From positions 1 through 45,407 of IMG/VR virus record IMGVR_UViG_3300031857_024899: a stretch of DNA of 45,407 nucleotides; one strand, 5' to 3'. Below, piece by piece: positions 26,211-45,407 of this stretch (positions are counted from its first letter, which is position 1; the number at the start of each line of letters is the position of its first letter). The notes under the pieces are model-generated. The model was not told where the DNA came from, searched no databases, and saw only the letters and a list, made by a program, of their open reading frames with translations. The position numbers were made by a program, and so were the translations under genes. The stretch is from a virus.

Positions 26211-26652
26211 GGACCAGCCCCGGTTCGTAGATGGTCTTGCCCTGCGCCAGCTTGGCCGTGAGCAGCTGGGTGCGCTCATTTGAGATCGCCACTGCCAGGT
26301 GGGTCCACCGTCCGAACTCGTGAATGATCTGCACGCAGGGCAGCTTCAACTGGTGGGCGGCTTGGCATACGACCAGCGGCGTCATGCCCGGCACGATGAG
26401 GTCCGCCGCACGCCCTTGCATGTGGTGGCTGGTCGGGCTGCCACCGACAGCGCGGTTCAATGCCGGCGACCGGTAGCCGGAGCTTATCACCACCGGGCGC
26501 TTGAGGTGGACGCGCAGGGGCTCCAGCACCGACTGACACAGCCGACGCAGATTCTCGATGACCTCGGGGGTGGGCTCGTTGCCGATACCACGGCGCGCAG
26601 CGGTCTCGGAGACCAGAAACTCGGCCAGTTCGAAATGTTCAGACAGTTGCAT
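26203..26652 (-). CDS. endolysin, M15 peptidase (D-Ala-D-Ala/L-Ala-D-Glu type)
   Basis: 149 residues from ATG 26652, which has an AGAGAG ribosome site; an upstream ATG at 26703 is possible but unlikely. The Peptidase_M15_3 zinc ligands are visible: SGYRS (58-62), SHHMQGRAAD (75-84, His and Asp) and WTHLA (His118). Such enzymes cut cell-wall peptide bonds. There is no signal peptide, so a holin is needed for release. It lies between two methyltransferase genes, far from the holin near 0.4 kb, and no spanin gene is visible. Confidence 0.85.
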   Translation of the reverse strand: MQLSEHFELAEFLVSETAARRGIGNEPTPEVIENLRRLCQSVLEPLRVHLKRPVVISSGYRSPALNRAVGGSPTSHHMQGRAADLIVPGMTPLVVCQAAHQLKLPCVQIIHEFGRWTHLAVAISNERTQLLTAKLAQGKTIYEPGLVHV

Positions 26653-28063
26653 GTTCGCTCTCTTGTCGATGCTCGGCTTTGCGTTGTTGAGCAACAACCT
26701 CAAAGGGTTCTCCGGTGGCGGCCAAGGTGACCGGCGCGCCAGGGAAGTTCTGTTGGAAACGGATCAGTGCCACGTCGACGTACTCGGGTGCGATCTCCAC
26801 CGCGCGGCCAATACGCCCTGTCCGCTGGGCAGCCATCAGCGTGGTGCCGCTGCCGCCAAAGGGCTCAAACACGATCTCGCCTTCATTGGTGTACGCCTCA
26901 ATGACCTGCACCGGCAGCGTCACCGGAAAGACGGCCGGGTGATCGATGTCCTTGCCGATCTTTCCCTTGTGGCGCATGACCCGGATGACCGAGTCGGGGA
27001 TGCGGTGGTCCTGGGTCGGTTGACCGGCAGCGGTCCAGCCGTTGACCTGGCCATCCTTGCCGCGCATCGCAGTCGAGGATCCGTCAGCGCGCAGGTGCGT
27101 TTCCTGGCCGGCGAACTTGCAGGGCACCGTCTTGTTGGGTTTGCGCGTTTGCCGGTTGAAGTGGAAGATGAATTCAAAGCTCGGCGCCAGACGCCCCTGC
27201 CAATCGCCGGGCATCCCTGGCCCCTGGTCCCAGACGTACCAGGCAAAGCGCCGCCAGCCTTGTGTCCGCATCCAATCGAGCCACTGATCCCAATACGGGA
27301 TGAACTCGTTGTCACGGTGGATCAGGCCGAGGTTGACCAGCACCTGGCCATCGGCTGCCATGGGTACTTGGGTGAACACGCCGCGCATCAGGCCATCCCA
27401 GTCGGCAATGCCGCCTGAGGTGTAGTCGCGCTGGTTGCCATAGGGCGGCGAGGTGAAACACAGGCTGGCCTGCTCGCCCTGCATCAGGGTGGTGATCACG
27501 GATGGATCGGACGCGTCGCCGCAGATCAGGCGGTGCGAGCCCAACTGCCAGACATCGCCCGGGCGAGAGATGGGCTGCTTGGGTGGTTCGGGAACGTCGC
27601 TTTCTTCATCGGCATCCGACTCATCTCCAGACTCGCTGCCTTCAGCATCACCCAAGTCGGCCAGCATCTTGGCCAGCTCATCATCGTCAAAGCCTGTCAT
27701 CAGCAAGTCGTAACCGGCCTCAGACAGCTCGGCCAGTTCAAGCGTCAGCAACTCGTCGTCCCAACCCGCATCCAGCGCCAGGCGGTTGTCGGCGATCACG
27801 TAGGCACGCTTTTGTGCCGGGGTGAGGTGGCCCAGTTCAATGACCGGGACCTCGGGAAACTCCAGCTTGCGCGCGGCCGCGAGGCGTCCGTGGCCGGCGA
27901 TGATGCCGTTGTCGCCATCAACCAGGATGGGTTGCGTCCAGCCAAACTCCACGATGCTGGCCGCGATCTTGGCAATCTGCGCCGGAGAATGCGTGCGCGG
28001 ATTGTGCGCATAAGGCAGCAGCGCATCGATCGGGCGGTATTCGATCTGCAGGTTGGGCGTCAT
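26639..28063 (-). CDS. ParB-like domain fused to DNA methyltransferase (TSPPY type)
   Basis: 474 residues, a paralogue of the gene at 24924. The ParB-like part (PYAHNPRTHSPAQIAKIAAS; AGHGRLAAARKLEF) is followed by an acidic linker (about 139-158), then TSPPY (204-208) and EPFGGSG (about 400-406). TSPPY is typical of N4-cytosine enzymes, unlike the DPPY of its paralogue. It is preceded by a terminator-like hairpin instead of a normal ribosome site. It overlaps the endolysin start by 14 bases. Confidence 0.87.
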   Translation of the reverse strand: MTPNLQIEYRPIDALLPYAHNPRTHSPAQIAKIAASIVEFGWTQPILVDGDNGIIAGHGRLAAARKLEFPEVPVIELGHLTPAQKRAYVIADNRLALDAGWDDELLTLELAELSEAGYDLLMTGFDDDELAKMLADLGDAEGSESGDESDADEESDVPEPPKQPISRPGDVWQLGSHRLICGDASDPSVITTLMQGEQASLCFTSPPYGNQRDYTSGGIADWDGLMRGVFTQVPMAADGQVLVNLGLIHRDNEFIPYWDQWLDWMRTQGWRRFAWYVWDQGPGMPGDWQGRLAPSFEFIFHFNRQTRKPNKTVPCKFAGQETHLRADGSSTAMRGKDGQVNGWTAAGQPTQDHRIPDSVIRVMRHKGKIGKDIDHPAVFPVTLPVQVIEAYTNEGEIVFEPFGGSGTTLMAAQRTGRIGRAVEIAPEYVDVALIRFQQNFPGAPVTLAATGEPFEVVAQQRKAEHRQESEHATV

Positions 28064-35995: not shown

Positions 35996-36259
35996 TCATG
36001 CCATCACGCGTTCAGCGGTCGACTCGTGCAGCGCGCTGTACTCGAAGTCGAGGATGGCCTCCAGCGGATAGCTGACACGCTTGGAGAGCTTGAGGTATCG
36101 AGGGCCACGACCCTCGCTGCGCCAGCGTTGCAGCGTCTTGGGGCTGACACCCCAGCGCTGGGCCAGTTCGTTTTCGTTCAGGACCCGGCGATCGCCAGGT
36201 GCCAGGGTGTTGATCGCCGGGTAGGACGACCGGGGTTGGGGGCTTGCCGTAGCGGCCAT
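35996..36259 (-). CDS. AlpA/excisionase-type HTH protein
   Basis: 87 residues. A helix-turn-helix (NENELAQRWGVSPKTLQRWR, about 28-47) is followed by PRYLKLSKRVSYPLEAILDF, the standard AlpA/Xis wing. The ribosome site AAGGAGAG precedes the ATG. It is the first gene of the minus-strand early operon, so it may regulate that operon or help excision. The inverted repeats upstream (36309-36367) could be its operator. Confidence 0.75.
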   Translation of the reverse strand: MAATASPQPRSSYPAINTLAPGDRRVLNENELAQRWGVSPKTLQRWRSEGRGPRYLKLSKRVSYPLEAILDFEYSALHESTAERVMA

Positions 36260-36533: not shown

Positions 36534-37394
36534 ATGAAGATACACGCCTATAAAGTTGACTCCTTTGATGGAAGTCGAACCCTTCAAGATGTATTGCTAC
36601 AAATTGAGAGCGAACCAAGCCTCAGAGAAAGAATCAGACTAATAAATCAAGTAGAGCTCAGGGCTGAGTCTGTATCGCAAAAAGATGGATTATGGCTGAT
36701 GGACTTCGTAAGAATCAGAACCAGTAACGGTCCAGGCAAAGTCGGACGAGATTCTGAAGTTGAAGGATTCGAGTTCGATGAAGAAGAAGGATTTGGCGAA
36801 GAGACAGCTGCTCTTTATGATCCCGCAAGCGGATATATTCTGGTTGAATACAACCACTTTGGGGTAAGGGCTGGAGCTATAGCCGATTATCTGAGCGCAT
36901 ATGACGGAACAGAAACAAGCCTGTACACTTTTAAACCGAAATATGATGAAGATGTTGAACGCCGACTTCTGAACCATGGCATAACGCGCAAGATATCCTT
37001 TTGCCTTGATATTACGAGGATGTCTGAACAAGATAGGCAGCGAGGTCGTGCTCTTTCTGAGGCAATTGATTATGGACGACAGAACGGGGCAGATAAAATA
37101 AAAGTTGAGATTTCCGTCCAAGGTGAACGTCAACGTAGCCTCGCTAAAAACGCGCTCGACGGCCTCTCGGCTCTTCGCTCAATTCTTGGACAAAATCCTG
37201 ACGCCATCACCAAACTGGAAGTTTCTGGCAAAGAGAATCAAGACTCGGTCACTGAGGTTCTAGATCTTATCGCCCATAGACTCTCAATTGAGTTCAACGA
37301 TCTCGTTTTGGGCGCTGATCTACGGTATCCTCGCGACGAAAGATGGCGAGCGTTAGTGCGAGCCAAGAACGGATGGCGCCAGATATTGAGATAG
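36534..37394 (+). CDS. DUF6731 family protein, candidate cargo/defence gene
   Basis: 286 residues, AT-richer than its neighbours, with a clear ribosome site (AAGGAAATTT). The N-terminus (MKIHAYKVDSFDGSRTLQDV) and the middle (ALYDPASGYILVEYNHFGVR, then GAIADYLSAYDG) fit DUF6731. The C-terminal half is mixed alpha/beta (KIKVEISVQGERQRSLAKNA). It is not a membrane protein. It is followed four bases later by a four-helix membrane protein gene, an arrangement like Kiwa (KwaB plus KwaA). Similarity to Kiwa is in layout only and is inference. Confidence 0.62.
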   Translation: MKIHAYKVDSFDGSRTLQDVLLQIESEPSLRERIRLINQVELRAESVSQKDGLWLMDFVRIRTSNGPGKVGRDSEVEGFEFDEEEGFGEETAALYDPASGYILVEYNHFGVRAGAIADYLSAYDGTETSLYTFKPKYDEDVERRLLNHGITRKISFCLDITRMSEQDRQRGRALSEAIDYGRQNGADKIKVEISVQGERQRSLAKNALDGLSALRSILGQNPDAITKLEVSGKENQDSVTEVLDLIAHRLSIEFNDLVLGADLRYPRDERWRALVRAKNGWRQILR

Positions 37395-37398
37395 AAAA

Positions 37399-37809
37399 AT
37401 GAAACTATTTTTCGAGAAAATCTACCCGTACTTACTGGGCCTCATAGCATCAGTTTTATGGTTGCGTATGCAAGGTACATTTCCGACGGGTGACTCATTG
37501 CTCTCGGCCACGTTAACGGTGTCTGGTATTTTTGTGGGTTTTCTTGCTACCAGCAAGGCAATTCTCATGAGCATGAGCTCGCCCATAATCGAAGAACTAA
37601 AAAGAAGCGGCTACATCGAGGAACTTGTGTCTTACATCGGTCAAGCGATCTGGATAAACCTTCTGTTTTGTAGCATCAATGTAATCGGCTATTTTGTTAG
37701 CACGCAAGCGGAGTGGTACTCGTTAATTTGGATATTTATCTCTGTTTGTGCTCTAGCAACATTTATTCGCGTCACGCACATCATGCTCAAAATCTTCAAG
37801 CATGGTTGA
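37399..37809 (+). CDS. four-transmembrane protein paired with DUF6731
   Basis: 136 residues with about four hydrophobic segments: 9-24 (YPYLLGLIASVLWL), 35-58 (LSATLTVSGIFVGFLATSKA), about 84-105 (IWINLLFCSINVIGYFVS) and about 109-130 (LIWIFISVCALATFIRV). No family is recognised. It starts four bases after the DUF6731 stop, so the two form one transcription unit. A membrane effector or anchor is a natural guess. Confidence 0.65.
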   Translation: MKLFFEKIYPYLLGLIASVLWLRMQGTFPTGDSLLSATLTVSGIFVGFLATSKAILMSMSSPIIEELKRSGYIEELVSYIGQAIWINLLFCSINVIGYFVSTQAEWYSLIWIFISVCALATFIRVTHIMLKIFKHG

Positions 37810-37896: not shown

Positions 37897-38382
37897 TTAG
37901 ATCGAGAATCCAAACAATCGTCGCTGCTCCTCCCAGTCCCGGGGCAACGGGTCATGCCGTCCACGCAGTGTCTGCAAATTGAGATGCCGAGGCTGTTTTC
38001 CGTCGAGGACGGCTTCGATGATGTCCGGCGCCAGCATGGTCATGCGCAGCACTTCGGCGACCCAGCCCTGCTCCAATTTCATTGATCGGGACAGATCTCG
38101 GATGGTGGCGAATTTGCCTTGATCGAGCAGCTTCTGCCAGTAGAACGCTTTGCCCAAGGCGCGGATCATGGAAATGTCCTCGCCACCAGAACCAAGGGCC
38201 GAATGCTCACCGGGAGGCGGCGTCATCACCTTGTGGTTTCGCTTGCGCCGGATCGTCAGCGGCACCATCGTCACGCGCTGCTGTCCAGTGATGTAGTTGC
38301 GAGTGTCCTGGCCAATCTCGATGCGCACGTTGCGCTGCCGACTGTTCTCCGGGCGGGTGACAGGGATATCGGTGTTTTTCAT
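37897..38382 (-). CDS. ParB-like HTH accessory protein of the serine recombinase operon
   Basis: 161 residues. The N-terminus is a basic strand region (NVRIEIGQDTRNYITGQQR). The C-terminal half has a ParB-type helix-turn-helix (KLLDQGKFATIRDLSRSMKL, then GWVAEVLRMTMLAPDIIEAV). Such proteins commonly follow recombinase genes in proteobacterial islands and probably help DNA recognition or control. Coupled with the recombinase by a four-base overlap. Confidence 0.72.
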   Translation of the reverse strand: MKNTDIPVTRPENSRQRNVRIEIGQDTRNYITGQQRVTMVPLTIRRKRNHKVMTPPPGEHSALGSGGEDISMIRALGKAFYWQKLLDQGKFATIRDLSRSMKLEQGWVAEVLRMTMLAPDIIEAVLDGKQPRHLNLQTLRGRHDPLPRDWEEQRRLFGFSI

Positions 38383-39794
38383 GCGTACACCTCCTCGGCT
38401 GCACCCCTGGTTTCCTCAATCAGAGGGTGGTTGTAAATGTCGTCACTGAAACCCAGCCAGCCGTCCTCGCGCCACAGAATATCCAGGCCACGCTCGTGCA
38501 GATGGACTCGCTCGATCAGCAACTGCGTGATCCGCTGTTGTTCCTTCGGAAACAGTTGGTCCCACACGGCGCCAATGCGCTGCATGGCCACCACCACTTG
38601 TGCTTCCTCGAGTTTGGCGCCCTTGGGATGTTTTTGACAGGAACGCCATGTCGCCAGCATCAACTCTGGCGCACACAACGCCTTGTGGATCTGCTCCAGA
38701 ACCGCCGTCTCGATCTCGGCTGCAGGCAATGGCCCCATTGCGATGAGGCCAGGCGCAAGTGTTGCACCGGCATTACGGCGTTTGTGAAGATACGGCACGT
38801 AGTACCGATACAAGCGTCCGCTCTTTTTGCGCGTGAAACTGTGGATCATCAGCTGACCATCGGGGGCGTAGAGCAGCCCTGTGAGTAAAGCGGAATGCTG
38901 GGTGATCGACTTGCGTGGGCCCTGTTTGCGGCGCTCAATAAACGCGTGGACAAGGTCCCATGTGTCCTGATCAATGATGGCTTCGTGCTGGCCGGGGTAG
39001 CTTTTGTCTTTGTGCTGGACTTCGCCAAGGTAGATCCGGTTGCGCAGCAATTTGAAAAGGTACTGCTGGTCGATAGGCCTGCCTTCGCGGAATTGACCAT
39101 TTTGTGTCTGCCATGCCTTGGTAGTCCGCCCCTCGATTTCCAATTCACGCACGATCTCTGCAGCCGAGCCATGTTCACCATAGCGTCGGAAGATGGACCG
39201 CACCAAATCTGCTTCCGGCTTGTTCACCACAAGTTTGCGGTCGACGACGTCGTACCCGAGCGGCGGGGTACCACCCATCCACATACCCTTGGCCTTGCTG
39301 GCGGCAATCTTGTCGCGGATGCGTTCGCCGGTGACTTCTCGTTCGAATTGGGCAAACGACAACATCACGTTGAGCATCAGGCGGCCCATGGAGGTTGCCG
39401 TATTGAATTGCTGGGTGACGGAGACAAAGGAGACGCCGTGTCGGTCGAAGACCTCGACCAGTTTGGCGAAATCCGTCAGGTTGCGTGTCAGACGGTCGAT
39501 TTTGTAGACGACTACGATATCGATCTTGCCGGCCTCGATGTCCGCCATCAGCCTCCTGAGGCCTGGTCGCTCGATGTTGCCACCAGAAAAACCGCCATCG
39601 TCATAGCCATCCTGCAAAGCGATCCAGCCTTCGTGACGTTGACTGGCGACGTAGGCAAGCCCTGCATCCCGCTGCGCCTCCAGGCTGTTGTACTCCATGT
39701 CCAGCCCCTCATCGGTGGACTTGCGGGTGTAGACCGCGCAGCGTTTGCGAGGGGCGAGTGCAGCAGGCGCTGGTGTGTTGCGCTGGTTTTTCAT
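38379..39794 (-). CDS. serine recombinase (large serine integrase/resolvase type)
   Basis: 471 residues from ATG 39794 (AGAGGGAAG before it); a longer start at 39845 is rejected. Catalytic domain: YTRKSTDEGL with nucleophile Ser26, and VVYKIDRLTRNLTDFAKLVE. A recombinase domain (GTPPLGYDVVDRKLVVNKPE) and a zinc beta-ribbon-like part follow, though few Cys are visible. It may integrate the prophage, since no tyrosine integrase is present; alternatively it belongs to an island that the prophage entered. Attachment sites are not identified. Confidence 0.9.
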   Translation of the reverse strand: MKNQRNTPAPAALAPRKRCAVYTRKSTDEGLDMEYNSLEAQRDAGLAYVASQRHEGWIALQDGYDDGGFSGGNIERPGLRRLMADIEAGKIDIVVVYKIDRLTRNLTDFAKLVEVFDRHGVSFVSVTQQFNTATSMGRLMLNVMLSFAQFEREVTGERIRDKIAASKAKGMWMGGTPPLGYDVVDRKLVVNKPEADLVRSIFRRYGEHGSAAEIVRELEIEGRTTKAWQTQNGQFREGRPIDQQYLFKLLRNRIYLGEVQHKDKSYPGQHEAIIDQDTWDLVHAFIERRKQGPRKSITQHSALLTGLLYAPDGQLMIHSFTRKKSGRLYRYYVPYLHKRRNAGATLAPGLIAMGPLPAAEIETAVLEQIHKALCAPELMLATWRSCQKHPKGAKLEEAQVVVAMQRIGAVWDQLFPKEQQRITQLLIERVHLHERGLDILWREDGWLGFSDDIYNHPLIEETRGAAEEVYA

Positions 39795-40258
39795 GCTGCT
39801 TCCCTCTTCTTGGTCTTGAGGCCAAAAAACATCGGCCCAGACCATGGAGAGCCGGTGATGACCTTGGCGACTGCGGTGAGACTCGTGAAGCGTTGGTCGC
39901 GATATTCAAAGTCGCGCATGCCTCGAACCGTCACCTTGTGCTCGACGTCGTCATAGACGCGGGTGAGGACGGTGCCGGGCAACAGGCGGTCCGCGTCGCG
40001 GCGCAACCGTGGCGGCAGGATGCCGGTCTCGCCAATTTCTTCGAGCTTGCGGCGCACAGACGCCTTCAGGCCACCGAACGCGCGTGCCTGAATTTTGTAT
40101 GCCAGTCGGGATTCGAGCCAAGTCCGGTGATGGTGATTCGGGCGCTCGTCAAAATGCTCATCCCATAGAGCCCAGAGGTTGTCCATGGGCAGGTGGGACA
40201 GCTGTGCAATCCGGACGGCAACGGCGGCGGTGTCGGGCTGTGGTGCGTGTGGTGTCAT
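39791..40258 (-). CDS. DUF2924 domain protein
   Basis: 155 residues with the DUF2924 pattern: LSHLPMDNLWALWDEHFDER, RTWLESRLAYKIQARAFGGL, LLPGTVLTRVYDDVEHKVTV and SLTAVAKVITGSPWSGPMFF. The family nearly always lies next to serine recombinase genes of this type and is thought to be an accessory factor. It is coupled with the recombinase by ATGA. Confidence 0.88.
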   Translation of the reverse strand: MTPHAPQPDTAAVAVRIAQLSHLPMDNLWALWDEHFDERPNHHHRTWLESRLAYKIQARAFGGLKASVRRKLEEIGETGILPPRLRRDADRLLPGTVLTRVYDDVEHKVTVRGMRDFEYRDQRFTSLTAVAKVITGSPWSGPMFFGLKTKKREAA

Positions 40259-40479
40259 GCGTGAACTCCTTCTTCTTGATAGAGGTTTGTATTCACGCGC
40301 TGGTGGGCAGAAAAGCCAAGGTCAACCTCGTCTTTTACGTCCGATGTGGTCGAGTAGTCACACGCTGAATCCGCGGCACGCAGGCGCAGGATCGCCATGG
40401 CGAGCAAGTCAGCGATTTCTTGTTGGGGATCGCGCGGCCGGTCGGCATTCGCGCAGAAGGAGGGTTTGTCGATTTGCAT
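40255..40479 (-). CDS. small leader protein of the recombinase operon
   Basis: 74 residues (MQIDKPSFCANADRPRDPQQ; EIADLLAMAILRLRAAD) with no family I can name. The stop overlaps the DUF2924 start by four bases, so it is the first gene of the four-gene operon. The ribosome site is poor. Similar small ORFs are likely conserved upstream of DUF2924 genes elsewhere, which can be tested. Confidence 0.58.
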   Translation of the reverse strand: MQIDKPSFCANADRPRDPQQEIADLLAMAILRLRAADSACDYSTTSDVKDEVDLGFSAHQRVNTNLYQEEGVHA

Positions 40480-40562
40480 GGCAGGCTTTCATGTGGAAAA
40501 CGCTGCTTATGCTATGGACAGGGGGTGCTCCGCGTAACGTGTTTTAGCGGGAGTACGCGGCC

Positions 40563-41330
40563 TTATGTTCTTCTAGATATGGCGCGCTCAGTGAACCCGA
40601 CTAAATCATCCACGTCTTCCGCATCAATATCAAGATTGCTATACGCGTTGCGGTAGTCCTCCCAGACAATATTGGAATCATTGAAGGGCTCCATCCCCCT
40701 TGCAAAGCCAAAAAACCTATTAATCAGCGCCTGCAACTCACCAAGACTAAAGATGTAAGTCATCACATTGTGCGGCACAAAAATCATGCCTTCACTTTTT
40801 CCCAATGCCAACTTCAACTCCTTCATTCTCGAATGATGGACCTGTAATTTCACGAGAACATTTGCCAAGTAGTCCGCCACGTCCGGGTCTGCATCTGAAA
40901 TACAGCGGCTAAATATTTCTTTATAACTTTCGGGCAATTCAGGCAGTTCTGCGGCAAGGGGACCGGGCCTCATTCCGGCTTCCCTCAGTTTTATCCATGC
41001 TTCTTGCAAAAGAATCGCGCTTTGCTTGCAGTATGAAGTTAATTCGCTCAGCGCATGCGGCATAAATGCTCGGGCAGCGATGAATTGCCGCTCACGCTGT
41101 TTATTGACGTTGTACTTTGCGATATTGAATGCGATCAAACTTGAAATAAATGCCAACACGCCGACGTTCAATGCTTGCCAACGATCCCACACTTCTTGAA
41201 CGTACGCCCAGTCCCCTGTTAAAAACGGAACAACAAGCATGCTCAAAAAATAGACGACAAATGACGGCAACCCCACCCAATTCATGATGGACATCATGGT
41301 GTCCGCCTTTACGAATCTAATGTGTTTCAT
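40563..41330 (-). CDS. membrane protein downstream of XRE-ImmA genes
   Basis: 255 residues, AT-richer than its neighbours. Two hydrophobic segments near the N-terminus (about 20-37, LPSFVVYFLSMLVVPFL, and 52-71, ALNVGVLAFISSLIAFNIA) are followed by a long helical cytosolic part (TSYCKQSAILLQEAWIKLRE; LANVLVKLQVHHSRMKELKL). No family is recognised. It overlaps the ImmA gene by ATGA, so the three genes form one operon. Confidence 0.68.
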   Translation of the reverse strand: MKHIRFVKADTMMSIMNWVGLPSFVVYFLSMLVVPFLTGDWAYVQEVWDRWQALNVGVLAFISSLIAFNIAKYNVNKQRERQFIAARAFMPHALSELTSYCKQSAILLQEAWIKLREAGMRPGPLAAELPELPESYKEIFSRCISDADPDVADYLANVLVKLQVHHSRMKELKLALGKSEGMIFVPHNVMTYIFSLGELQALINRFFGFARGMEPFNDSNIVWEDYRNAYSNLDIDAEDVDDLVGFTERAISRRT

Positions 41331-42244
41331 TTCTTCTTCACGATCCTCTGATCAACGCAGTCTGCGATCTCTTCATCATCCCAAGACCGATCCCATGACC
41401 GAGGAGCCGCGCTTTCAAGCAGCAACAGCGACAGGACGCGGTCCCGCGCACCGTACGTGTGCTTGAACTCGGTCAGCGTAATATCGGAGGACTCTTCTGG
41501 GCACCAGACATCGGCCGGCATGTCGATGCCGTTCCATTCCTGCGCAATGTCCGGGTCGGCAGCCAGCGTTTCCGGCAACGGTTCTTGCGGATCATCGGTG
41601 CGCCGGATGCGTGCACGCGTCTTGATGGCGCTGCTGCTGCGCCACTCGTACTTGGCGAATCCGTTGTCCCAATAGACCAGGATCGCGCGTTGCGGCGTGA
41701 ACTTGATGAACCGGATGCACAGGGACTCGAACGACACCTGGAAGCGTTTGGCAAGAGCACTGAGGATATGCAGATCAATGCGCCGGTCGGAAATCGCGTC
41801 GCGCAGCCGGTCGCCAGGGATCAAAAGGTTGCTGGCAAAGTCATCTGCCTCGCGCTCGATGTTGCGCAGGAGGTCTGCACCGGAGAAGACGCTCTCTTTG
41901 TCACAGCTAAATCTGGGGCGCTGGCCACGGTGCAAGACGAAGTGGCCTAGCTCATGGGCGATGGTGAACCGCTGGCGCTCGGCGAGTGACCTGCCGTTGA
42001 AAAAGATGCCCCACTCAGCGTCATCCTGTGGGTTGCGCACCAGCATGCCTTCGCAGCTGGCCAGGCCATGCGCCATCGGCGCCTTGATTTCGCGAACGCC
42101 CTGACCGTAGGGGGTGTCTGGCAGCATCTGGCGGACGAGGTCCAGATCAATGGCGTCAGGTGCAGACCCTTGGTGCCATGCGCGCATCCACTTGTGGATG
42201 TTGTTGGCCGCGATGGAACCGGTGAGGGCCTGCGCTGTGCTCAT
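41327..42244 (-). CDS. ImmA/IrrE-type zinc metallopeptidase
   Basis: 305 residues. The zinc protease motif is HELGHFVLH (HELGH at 97-101) with the third ligand in IEREADDFASNLLIP (about Glu132). The C-terminal part (RFQVSFESLCIRFIKFTPQR; FAKYEWRSSSAIKTRA) is a mixed domain found in many ImmA/IrrE fusions. Family members cleave a partner XRE repressor after DNA damage or phage signals. The partner is the gene three bases upstream. Confidence 0.9.
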   Translation of the reverse strand: MSTAQALTGSIAANNIHKWMRAWHQGSAPDAIDLDLVRQMLPDTPYGQGVREIKAPMAHGLASCEGMLVRNPQDDAEWGIFFNGRSLAERQRFTIAHELGHFVLHRGQRPRFSCDKESVFSGADLLRNIEREADDFASNLLIPGDRLRDAISDRRIDLHILSALAKRFQVSFESLCIRFIKFTPQRAILVYWDNGFAKYEWRSSSAIKTRARIRRTDDPQEPLPETLAADPDIAQEWNGIDMPADVWCPEESSDITLTEFKHTYGARDRVLSLLLLESAAPRSWDRSWDDEEIADCVDQRIVKKK

Positions 42245-42247
42245 GGC

Positions 42248-42589
42248 TCAGTCTCCGCTTTTGCCCTTGTCGGGGAACGCGATCTGGAGCAGTTGCCGGT
42301 AGCGGTCTTTCTCCTCGTTGGTCATGCCGGCGTACTCACGGAAAAACTGGACATCTTCTGGGCTGGCCTCAGGCACTGCCTCCAAGGGCTCACCCATGAC
42401 GTCTTCCATCGTCACGCCCAGCACCTTGGCCAACCCGTGCACCCGCTCGGCGGATGGGCGCTGGCCTTCCTTCATTTCAAGTTCCCAGATGTAAGCCTTG
42501 GTGCAGCCGGCGGCGTCGGCTACCTGCTGGAGGGTCAGCCCCTTCGCCTCACGCAAGCGCCGCAGGCGTGCTCCAAATGCCGAAGCCAT
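42248..42589 (-). CDS. XRE family repressor, partner of ImmA
   Basis: 113 residues with a lambda-repressor-type HTH (ARLRRLREAKGLTLQQVADA; AAGCTKAYIWELEMKEGQRP) and a short C-terminal helix region (FFREYAGMTNEEKDRYRQLL). The ATG follows AGGAG. It likely represses its own promoter and perhaps the divergent genes at 42820, until the ImmA protease cuts it. Confidence 0.88.
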   Translation of the reverse strand: MASAFGARLRRLREAKGLTLQQVADAAGCTKAYIWELEMKEGQRPSAERVHGLAKVLGVTMEDVMGEPLEAVPEASPEDVQFFREYAGMTNEEKDRYRQLLQIAFPDKGKSGD

Positions 42590-42626
42590 GGCGATGCTCC
42601 TGTGTATTCAATGTTTGGACTTTTTG

Positions 42627-42652
42627 AGTATAGCAGCGAGACACAAATGTCT
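42627..42652 (-). promoter_or_regulatory. XRE operon promoter and operator
   Basis: On the minus strand TATACT (42632-42627) is a good -10 box. The inverted repeat AGACATTTGTGTCT (42652-42639) lies directly upstream, between -10 and -35 positions. The -35 is weak. The layout fits autoregulation by the XRE protein. Confidence 0.55.
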
Positions 42653-42671
42653 GCCATATGTGCCGACCTGA

Positions 42672-42700
42672 TTGACAAGCGGAAATGCGGTGGACACAAT
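42672..42700 (+). promoter_or_regulatory. divergent promoter for the 42820 operon
   Basis: TTGACA (42672-42677), a 17-bp spacer, and CACAAT (42695-42700). It lies 20 bases from the XRE operator, so the same repressor could act on both. The ribosome site of the first gene (GGAAAGGACTGCC) is 100 bases on. Confidence 0.5.
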
Positions 42701-42819
42701 CACCCTGTATCACGTCACTTTACTTGTACGCGATATCCGTTTAGTAAATTAGTCGCCGGCCAGCGCACCCAGACTTCGGTCCGCAGACCTCCGACACCTC
42801 CTCGGAAAGGACTGCCAAC

Positions 42820-44052
42820 ATGAAAAAAACCTGGATCGACCTGCTGTGTGAGTTGCCCGTGGACGCCACCTTGCGTGAGTTCCTGACAGGCCATGGGCTG
42901 CAAATGCCCGACGACTTTGCTTGGACTGACAAGCCTGAGACCACGCAGGCCCTGATCGCGGCATTGCTCGGCTGCCCGGACATGGCCGTGCGCGACACGG
43001 TGGCCGCCAAACTGCGTGCCAGTGTCGCTCTTGGCGATTCGGCCGGATCGCAGGCCATGTTCCAAGTGGCCACCGGTGACGGAGCTACCTTGACAGCACT
43101 GGCCACATGCAAGAGCGACATCCATCGCTCGTTCTGGCTGTACGTCAAGCACCCGGAGCTGTTCGATCGCGCGGGGGACGTAGACCACTTCGAGCGCCAG
43201 GCGACCAACGCCCAGCAGCATGACCTGGGCGTCAAAACCATCCCCGACACATCGGACGCCGCTCTGACTGCACTGCGTGCCGATGTCGCCGCCTTCTACC
43301 AACGGGAGATGCAGTGCGGAGACCGCAGCAAGGCCTACGTCATGGAGCGCAGCCCCTGCGTGTTCCTGCTGAGCGTGCACGTCAAGGACCTTTCGACGGT
43401 CCAGTTGGAATTCCAGGGTGATGACCTCAAGCGCCGGGTCGGCAACCCCAACATCCATTCGGTGCTGGAGTACTCGACGCGCACCGGCGTCACCCGCTCG
43501 CTGGTCAAGGGAGGGGCCAAGTACCACCAGATGCTGCTCAAGGCGTTCGCCGAACATCTGCTGCACACCGTCCTCGATGCGCAACGCCTAAAGGCGCCGA
43601 CGCTCGATTTGTCGGCGCTGCGGCTGGGATTCGATGTGCCGCAAGCGCAGACCGACGGCTTCAACGTGCTGCAGGTGAAGTCGATCAGCCTGCTCAGCCC
43701 GGACAACCAGTTGAAGCTCGACTGCACAGCTATGGCGGCAAGCGAGCACCGCTGCGTTACCGACCTGCTGGCTGAAAAGCTGCCGGGCCCATTGTCCGAA
43801 AACTGGATGGTCACCGCCGCGCAGATCAATCTGTACTACCCACCCGAGCCCGGCAAGTCGAAGTCGAAGATGGTGGCCATCGAAATCACCCGCAAAGGGC
43901 GGCTGAACCTACACAAGTTCGACGCGCCATTGCAGGCGCAGTTGGAAAGCTACCTGGTGGCCCTGGGCATTCTGGCCAAGGGGCAGACGCTCAATGCAGA
44001 GGAGGTGCCGATGGGGGATGGTCAGGATCTGCAGCCCGCCTACGAGGACTGA
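42820..44052 (+). CDS. unknown 410-residue protein, first gene of the divergent operon
   Basis: No family is recognised. The protein begins with a helical stretch (ELPVDATLREFLTGHG), has a middle region with FWLYVKHPELFDRAGDVDHF and VKDLSTVQLEFQGDDLKRRV, and a C-terminal part (WMVTAAQINLYYPPEPGKSK, then MVAIEITRKGRLNLHKFDAP) of mixed alpha/beta type. There is no membrane segment or signal peptide. The next gene starts four bases later. It may be a defence or stress system component; the data do not say which. Confidence 0.75.
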   Translation: MKKTWIDLLCELPVDATLREFLTGHGLQMPDDFAWTDKPETTQALIAALLGCPDMAVRDTVAAKLRASVALGDSAGSQAMFQVATGDGATLTALATCKSDIHRSFWLYVKHPELFDRAGDVDHFERQATNAQQHDLGVKTIPDTSDAALTALRADVAAFYQREMQCGDRSKAYVMERSPCVFLLSVHVKDLSTVQLEFQGDDLKRRVGNPNIHSVLEYSTRTGVTRSLVKGGAKYHQMLLKAFAEHLLHTVLDAQRLKAPTLDLSALRLGFDVPQAQTDGFNVLQVKSISLLSPDNQLKLDCTAMAASEHRCVTDLLAEKLPGPLSENWMVTAAQINLYYPPEPGKSKSKMVAIEITRKGRLNLHKFDAPLQAQLESYLVALGILAKGQTLNAEEVPMGDGQDLQPAYED

Positions 44053-44055
44053 TCG

Positions 44056-45006
44056 ATGTCGACCCACGTAGCGTGGTCGCTGGTCTGTCGCCTGTTTCGG
44101 GGCGGCACGCCCATATTCCGAGGGGCTTTGTCACCAGCCGAGGAGACGGCCTGCGCCAGCCTGGGTGCAGCGATCAAGCCAACAGTCATCAGCCGCAACT
44201 TCGTGCTGTGCCCGTATTGCCAACTACAAAGCGGTCAGGTCGTTGGTGATGGCAATGGTGGACAGGTCTGCCAGTGCCCTGAATGCGGTCCCATCACGCT
44301 GACACCTGACGATCGGGCGGCGGTGATGTTGGACGAAGGGTGGCTGCGGTCAAAGCTGCGGATGGCCCTGGAAATCGAAAGCCGCGACGGCATCACCGAC
44401 ATCGCCGATGGTGTTTGGCGGTTGGGCGAGGCACGGCGCTCGCCGGTGCTGCTGGCCAGGAGCCTGAGCCGACTGTGGTCCGACCCATCCATCTTCGAGC
44501 GCGTCCGTATTACCGGCGCCGACATCCGGGTCATCGCGCCCAAGGCGCCAAAGGTCCGTGGCAATCCGTTTGCGCTTGGCATCGAGTGGCTGCCGCTGGA
44601 GGAACGGTTCACGCTGTACGGCGGCGGGATTGCATTGATCGGATCAGACACGGGCCAGGCACCCATGATGGTGGCCGAACCCTGGGCCACGTACCTGGGC
44701 CCCTTCTCGGCGGACTTCAGGTGGGTATCGCTGGATGACTGGCCCCACGGTCCGATCCGCTGCACCGAAGGCCAGGCTGCCGTCTTCAAGGCGCTCTGGT
44801 CATTCAAGGGCGTCAAGGTGGATGCCGAGCGCGTGATGCTCAAAGCGAGCCAGGATAGCGAAAAGCCCATCGACCTGTTCAAGGTCAAGAAAGAGAACAA
44901 AGGCAAGCCCGAGTACATGGGGCCGCTGCATGCGTACCGCACGCTCGTGAAATCAACCCAGCGTCCGGGGGAATACTGGATGCCGTGTGCAGCGTCAGCA
45001 GGTTGA
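44056..45006 (+). CDS. unknown 316-residue protein with zinc ribbon
   Basis: A zinc ribbon is visible at about residues 52-77 (CPYCQLQSGQVVGD ... CQCPECGPITL). The N-terminal arm and the C-terminal two-thirds (LSRLWSDPSIFERVRITGAD; FTLYGGGIALIGSDTGQAPM; YLGPFSADFRWVSLDDW) match nothing I can name. The region around residue 240 (TEGQAAVFKALWSFKGVKVD) looks like a winged-helix. It is coupled to the preceding gene. Confidence 0.72.
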   Translation: MSTHVAWSLVCRLFRGGTPIFRGALSPAEETACASLGAAIKPTVISRNFVLCPYCQLQSGQVVGDGNGGQVCQCPECGPITLTPDDRAAVMLDEGWLRSKLRMALEIESRDGITDIADGVWRLGEARRSPVLLARSLSRLWSDPSIFERVRITGADIRVIAPKAPKVRGNPFALGIEWLPLEERFTLYGGGIALIGSDTGQAPMMVAEPWATYLGPFSADFRWVSLDDWPHGPIRCTEGQAAVFKALWSFKGVKVDAERVMLKASQDSEKPIDLFKVKKENKGKPEYMGPLHAYRTLVKSTQRPGEYWMPCAASAG

Positions 45007-45062
45007 GACAGAAATTTGAGATGCCACGACGGCGTCGCGTTTAATTTTCAAAGGAGATTGAC

Positions 45063-45407
45063 ATGGGATTTTTCAAACCGCTGACCGGGCGACAAGTGGC
45101 CGAGTACGCGAACTCAATCTGTCAGAAGTGGGATAGTCTCACCCCCGAAGAAAAGGCCAGTGGCGAGTACATCGACCCGGACGCGCCCGTGGTGATCGCC
45201 GTGCCAAACCCACAATGGAGGGGAACGGACGACTGCTATAACGATGACGAGCACGGCAACAAATGGCTGCTTCACTTCCACTTGCAAAGCTATGGCGGTG
45301 GCGACGATAGGGACGATGATGGCAACGAGTGCGGCCATGACGGTGCGGAAATCGTCGGCATGGCGATGGAGCAGTCCACTTTCGTCGAGAAGGGCATGAA
45401 GGCATAA
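45063..45407 (+). CDS. small acidic hypothetical protein
   Basis: 114 residues, complete, ending at the last base of the window. The ribosome site AAAGGAGATTGAC is excellent. It has a very acidic Gly/Asp stretch (GGGDDRDDDGNECGHDGAEI) and LLHFHLQSYG. No family is recognised. It is 56 bases after the zinc-ribbon gene, so it is probably part of the same operon. Confidence 0.65.
   Translation: MGFFKPLTGRQVAEYANSICQKWDSLTPEEKASGEYIDPDAPVVIAVPNPQWRGTDDCYNDDEHGNKWLLHFHLQSYGGGDDRDDDGNECGHDGAEIVGMAMEQSTFVEKGMKA

Follow-up and report, generated by a model that had tools for sequence, protein, structure and literature searches.

A conserved gene pair diverging from a CapH/CapP-type switch beside the serine recombinase of a temperate-phage lineage: a candidate induction operon

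Two adjacent genes at the right end of a viral genome, here named A and B, form a tight conserved pair, and this pair is phage backbone, located in the integration module (large serine recombinase, DUF2924 protein and accessory protein) of a temperate-phage lineage. We propose, as a reading with about an even chance of being correct, that A-B is the damage-induced output operon of the lysogeny and integration module, and that its products are DNA-binding partners that drive excision and early lytic development. The pair is probably part of the machinery with which the phage wakes up, rather than a separate defence system. The architecture is firmly established, as is its conservation, and the mechanism is what we infer from them; gene order, co-conservation, promoter, operator-like repeats, repressor exchange and A-B fusion were all observed directly. 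The proposal draws on the conservation of the pair, its fusions, the linkage to the recombinase, the position in the prophage, the promoter with its repeats and the exchange of repressors, together with the fold matches of A and B. An XRE repressor with an ImmA-type protease beside an integrase is a known kind of switch; what it would control here is a pair of proteins that is widely conserved and uncharacterised.

The analysed window is the whole 45.4-kb viral record IMGVR_UViG_3300031857_024899 (45,407 nt), which also encodes terminase, tail, primase/helicase, Sak4-like and Cas4-like genes. A ParB-like domain fused to an N4/N6 DNA methyltransferase is found at 26639-28063. At the right end, the minus strand carries a recombinase accessory protein (37897-38382; phrog_14161, E 8.5e-45), the large serine recombinase or integrase (38379-39845; Pfam Resolvase and Recombinase, PHROG 95 integrase, E 6e-108), a DUF2924 protein (39791-40258; Pfam, E 5e-42), a 255-aa protein with hydrophobic N-terminal segments (40563-41330), a CapP/ImmA-type metalloprotease of the Peptidase_M78 family (41327-42244; PADLOC capP, E 1.9e-52; Pfam M78, E 2e-19) and a CapH/ImmR-type XRE repressor (42248-42589; PADLOC capH, E 9.5e-23; HTH_31). 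The repressor and the protease, capH and capP according to PADLOC, lie in tandem and diverge from three plus-strand ORFs, namely gene A (42820-44052, 410 aa), gene B (44056-45006, 316 aa) and gene C (45063-45407, 114 aa). The original prediction of an uncharacterised gene set facing an XRE/ImmA switch thus holds for the conserved pair A-B.

All three ORFs carry a coding signal when compared with the twin contig L100 (95% identical) and with L020 and L102, as had been predicted. The changes relative to L100 and L020/L102 are mostly in third codon positions (15/7/64 for A against L100), which shows that A and B are genuine genes and evolve under purifying selection. Approximately 150 A-carrying loci were fetched by gene searches, some of them duplicates of one contig. 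Gene B lies directly downstream of A in all 145 loci with at least 1 kb of downstream sequence (partly redundant loci), and the gap of 3 nt found in the window is also the commonest spacing. By contrast, a relative of gene C occurs in only one contig (L100/L002), 94-96% identical to the window, and in other phages the interval from B to the terminator contains different small genes or none at all. A conserved gene order, as expected in the original prediction, was therefore found for the 410/316 pair and failed for the 114-aa gene; the trio is not a unit, and gene C, a passenger ORF in the stretch from B to the attachment site, was rejected as a member of the system. In two distant phages A and B are fused into one protein (L244:8038-10212, 724 aa; L246:8053-10218, 721 aa), the B halves of which match the profile of other B proteins with E values of 4e-23 and 2e-14. 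These fusions argue that A and B work together.

The pair is tightly associated with the recombinase. A serine recombinase is located upstream of A in 89 of the 97 loci with 6 kb of room, and several of the exceptions look degraded or hold large cargo. When the search was started from the recombinase, 42 loci had 6 kb of room, of which 37 contained A and 20 contained CapP, which indicates that A-B tracks the recombinase more than it tracks CapH/CapP; the approximately 12% of recombinase loci without detectable A weaken the reading of A-B as an induction operon. The window stops exactly at the stop codon of gene C, and the twin contig L100 runs on to a tRNA-Phe gene, which is the likely attachment site. 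In close relatives from different hosts, B is followed by a terminator and then directly by the 3' end of a tRNA, most commonly tRNA-Phe, and also tRNA-Ala and tRNA-Lys (L100, L047, L072, L102, L045 and others). Since the sequence past B runs into a tRNA 3' end, A-B is inside the prophage, beside its right attachment site, and, to judge from the differing specificities of these tRNAs, more than one tRNA 3' end is apparently accepted by the serine recombinase. One contig, JAIXUS010000045.1 (L020, L032), carries two related prophages of this type; it was binned as Bacteroidetes, the other hosts being proteobacteria, and is possibly mis-binned.

An AlpA/HTH_17-like excisionase-type gene (35996-36259, minus strand; PHROG 66, E 2e-7; Pfam HTH_17, E 6e-7) is found in most loci, and in relatives it opens the early replication operon. 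The block comprising recombinase, CapH/CapP and A-B (37897-45006 in the window) is inverted relative to the AlpA-primase operon when compared with L014, L126 and L127. In that other arrangement, A-B is followed by a cargo site and then by the co-oriented AlpA-primase early operon, which supports the induction reading, whereas in the window's lineage the inverted A-B points away from the replication operon, which weakens it.

The intergenic region between capH and A was compared in 47 non-redundant relatives that have it. The predicted TTGACA-N17-CACAAT promoter at 42672-42700 (plus strand) was recovered in all 47, with the consensus TTGACA, a spacer of 16-17 bp and [CT]A[CG]AAT. It is flanked by two partly palindromic 17-bp repeats of the type GTATMKC-N3-GMKATAC, named O1 (GTATAGCAGCGAGACAC, 42628-42644) and O2 (GTATCACGTCACTTTAC, 42707-42723). 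O1 is conserved 26-27 bp before the -35 element in 47/47 loci and covers a TATACT hexamer, a possible -10 element of capH; O2 follows the -10 element of the A-B promoter by 5-9 bp in 46/47 loci. The mean match to the consensus is 12.8/14 for O1 and 12.0/14 for O2, compared with 8.7 and 8.0 for shuffled sequences, the consensus having been drawn from the same loci. Judged from its sequence, this layout would be that of an autoregulated divergent repressor, with O1 and O2 as putative CapH binding sites.

In the mechanism that we propose, CapH would hold O1 and O2 in the lysogen, shutting both its own promoter and that of A-B. Upon DNA damage, the CapP protease would cleave CapH and A-B would be transcribed at once; A, with its predicted RdgC/RexA-like fold, and B, with its zinc ribbon and modelled winged helix, would then act jointly at DNA, leading to excision and early lytic development. 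The cleavage step is proposed by analogy with characterised CapP homologues, which are activated by ssDNA and then cleave CapH (PMC13373217), and these homologues lend support to the reading as an induction operon. We also infer that A and B may form a complex that binds DNA, and that the exact step at which it would act may be early regulation or excision itself. As in the ImmR/ImmA (ICEBs1-type) and CapH/CapP systems, an XRE repressor and an M78 metalloprotease in tandem face a divergent operon with an integrase nearby, and the operator-like repeats in the shared promoter region would be a further common feature. The difference is that the operon under control would be A-B, instead of xis or an immune operon, and that relatives of A-B exchange the sensor for LexA/S24 or WYL regulators and keep A-B.

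This exchange was observed in distant relatives. A search with the PHROG 37634 profile, to which A belongs, found A relatives in 32 of 398 genomes of one phylum sample; 20 regions were fetched, and in nearly all of them A is followed by a B-like gene (~314 aa), usually with an adjoining recombinase. The profile matches (L205, L207, L208, L214-L216 and others) often contain one in-frame stop, mostly TGA. The repressor that faces A-B may be CapH/CapP, a LexA/S24 protein (L239, L241, L248), a WYL+WCX protein (L232, L237) or an M78 protein only (L235). In the Limnohabitans-type phages (L013-L019, L080-L099), CapH/CapP is absent and a gene of ~80-150 aa without a Pfam match takes its place. As far as these predicted regulators can be read from sequence, the sensor is exchangeable between unrelated families and the A-B output is constant, so that the lineage represents a natural experiment on the swapping of lysogeny repressors. 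LexA/S24 proteins are DNA-damage-responsive in characterised cases. The same applies to CapW-type WYL proteins and CapH/CapP, which characteristically control immune operons (PMC13373217). The pair A-B would connect the CapH/CapP and WYL controllers familiar from immune operons with the induction of phages; if this is true, Cap controllers, now studied as immune regulators, double as phage lysogeny repressors.

The original prediction named no family for the products. This stands as regards function, and it has to be corrected for A, which belongs by profile to PHROG 37634 (E 9.4e-31, residues 16-367 of 410), a family without an assigned function. Scans of A, B and the 114-aa protein against Pfam, NCBIfam and PADLOC gave nothing significant, and A had no match among the sequences of solved structures or, by tblastn, in phage and plasmid records. 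The structure model of A has a helical N-terminal part with pLDDT ~85-90 and a C-terminal half with ~60, and this low-confidence half weakens the induction reading. The structures that score highest against it are Chl4/CENP-N (Z 8-9), CENP-L/Iml3 (Z 6-7.6) and RdgC (Z 6.9); models without relatives often reach Z scores of 7-8, a level to which 7-9 is close, and the fold reading rests on the coherence of the match list. In a viral structure library, the best matches listed included phage RdgC and a TATA-binding protein. RexA's own structure did not appear among the listed matches, which carries no weight either way. The alignment with E. coli RdgC covers residues 125-397, with 211-215 residues aligned at Z 6.9, where the confidence of the model is ~60. 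RdgC, Iml3 and Chl4 are the fold relatives reported for lambda RexA (PMC11077077), and this agreement makes an RdgC/RexA/CENP-N-like fold for A suggestive; the fold relatives of RexA, a phage switch protein, also favour a role in induction. The top-scoring CENP-N/Chl4 and CENP-L/Iml3 are eukaryotic kinetochore proteins with 4-10% identity to A, so that only the fold is shared. RdgC was rejected as a sequence homologue of A (no match to Pfam RdgC, PF04381; hhalign probability 0.1%), as was RexA (hhalign probability 0.1%; hmmsearch E 0.08 with a negative score), and the lack of profile similarity to both counts against the induction reading. The gene context of A is also wholly different from that of RdgC.

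RdgC ranked among the best fold matches in each of two libraries, and the same phage carries Sak4-like annealing and Cas4-type exonuclease genes; this could suggest that A-B is an accessory of recombination or replication, with A as an RdgC-like RecA modulator that aids phage replication or recombination after induction. We consider this very unlikely, as A has no sequence relation to RdgC, and A-B is linked to the integrase block and not to the Sak4/Cas4 block, the two blocks being inverted relative to each other among phages.

The zinc ribbon predicted in the 316-aa protein is real: its four cysteines (C52, C55, C74 and C77) are all invariant in B's clade. The C-terminal domain of the B model (residues ~212-314) resembles OmpR/PhoB winged helices (Z 5-7.5); against the sequences of solved structures, B matched only Nop10 (E 0.94). 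The predicted DNA-binding folds make both products likely to bind nucleic acids, as had been suggested for B from its zinc ribbon. Distant B proteins, nearly all without the ribbon, match B over 270 columns (hhalign 97.5%, E 5e-12), which indicates that the ribbon is an add-on and weakens it as the key functional feature of B.

The near-obligate linkage to the recombinase (A in 37/42 loci) raises a further explanation, in which the large serine recombinase would have A, B or both as its recombination directionality factor, binding the integrase or attL/attR and turning integration into excision. The predicted DNA-binding folds of A and B and the damage-controlled expression to be expected from the repressor and promoter layout would fit such a role, and A and the recombinase show comparable rates of divergence (distant clade: 48% and 47% identity). 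We regard it as unlikely all the same, since the AlpA/excisionase-like gene present in most loci is a more conventional candidate and two large proteins would be unusual; to our knowledge, the known directionality factors are single, unrelated proteins. Returning to the reading as an induction operon, we tentatively suggest a more specific form of it, which we hold to be possible but somewhat short of even: A-B may be an undescribed two-protein induction/excision factor in which a DNA-embracing subunit of the RdgC/RexA/CENP-N type is paired with a winged-helix one. Such a factor would be present in nearly all members of a single serine-integrase lineage among proteobacterial phages, with interchangeable CapH/CapP, LexA and WYL damage sensors. 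We know of no excision factor for this serine integrase family, for which A-B is a testable partner.

The original prediction favoured a novel defence system, and A-B could be an exclusion or immune system, either Rex-like or an anti-phage operon controlled by CapH/CapP and switched on by DNA damage or infection. Such a role is suggested by the CapH/CapP and WYL regulators, typical of immune operons (PMC13373217), by the modelled RexA-like fold of A and by defence genes in the adjoining slot, and we judge it quite unlikely. None of A, B and the 114-aa protein matched a PADLOC family at E<0.01, and the Pfam scans found no nuclease, NTPase or membrane effector domain. Moreover, A-B is bound to one phage recombinase lineage (37/42 loci, versus 20/42 for CapP), is kept when the regulator changes, and lies beside the tRNA attachment site; the trio as a novel defence system is thus not supported, and the case for A-B as a defence operon is weak. 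Lambda RexA, a phage immunity-region protein with the same fold relatives as the low-confidence model of A (PMC11077077), has no sequence similarity to A, which has an extra helical N-terminal half, and its partner RexB is a membrane protein, whereas the modelled zinc ribbon and winged helix of B are of a DNA-binding type. In addition, rexAB is located downstream of cI on the same strand, whereas A-B diverges from capH.

The defence-island intuition does apply to the slot between the DUF2924 gene and capP (40259-41326), although not to A-B. This slot is hypervariable, with different content in nearly every relative: it is empty or holds GmrSD-type restriction enzymes (HEC-05, HEC-06), a PDC-S37-like helicase-nuclease, an ankyrin defence protein, LOTUS-domain proteins or others, and even phages whose A is 94-96% identical to that of the window have something else or nothing there. 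The 255-aa protein of the window's slot has relatives on Vibrio plasmids (37% identity, tblastn). A second cargo site, at 36534-37809, separates the AlpA-like gene from the recombinase block and encodes a DUF6731 protein (286 aa) and a 136-aa hydrophobic protein; this cargo is present in L002/L100 and L020, and absent or replaced elsewhere.
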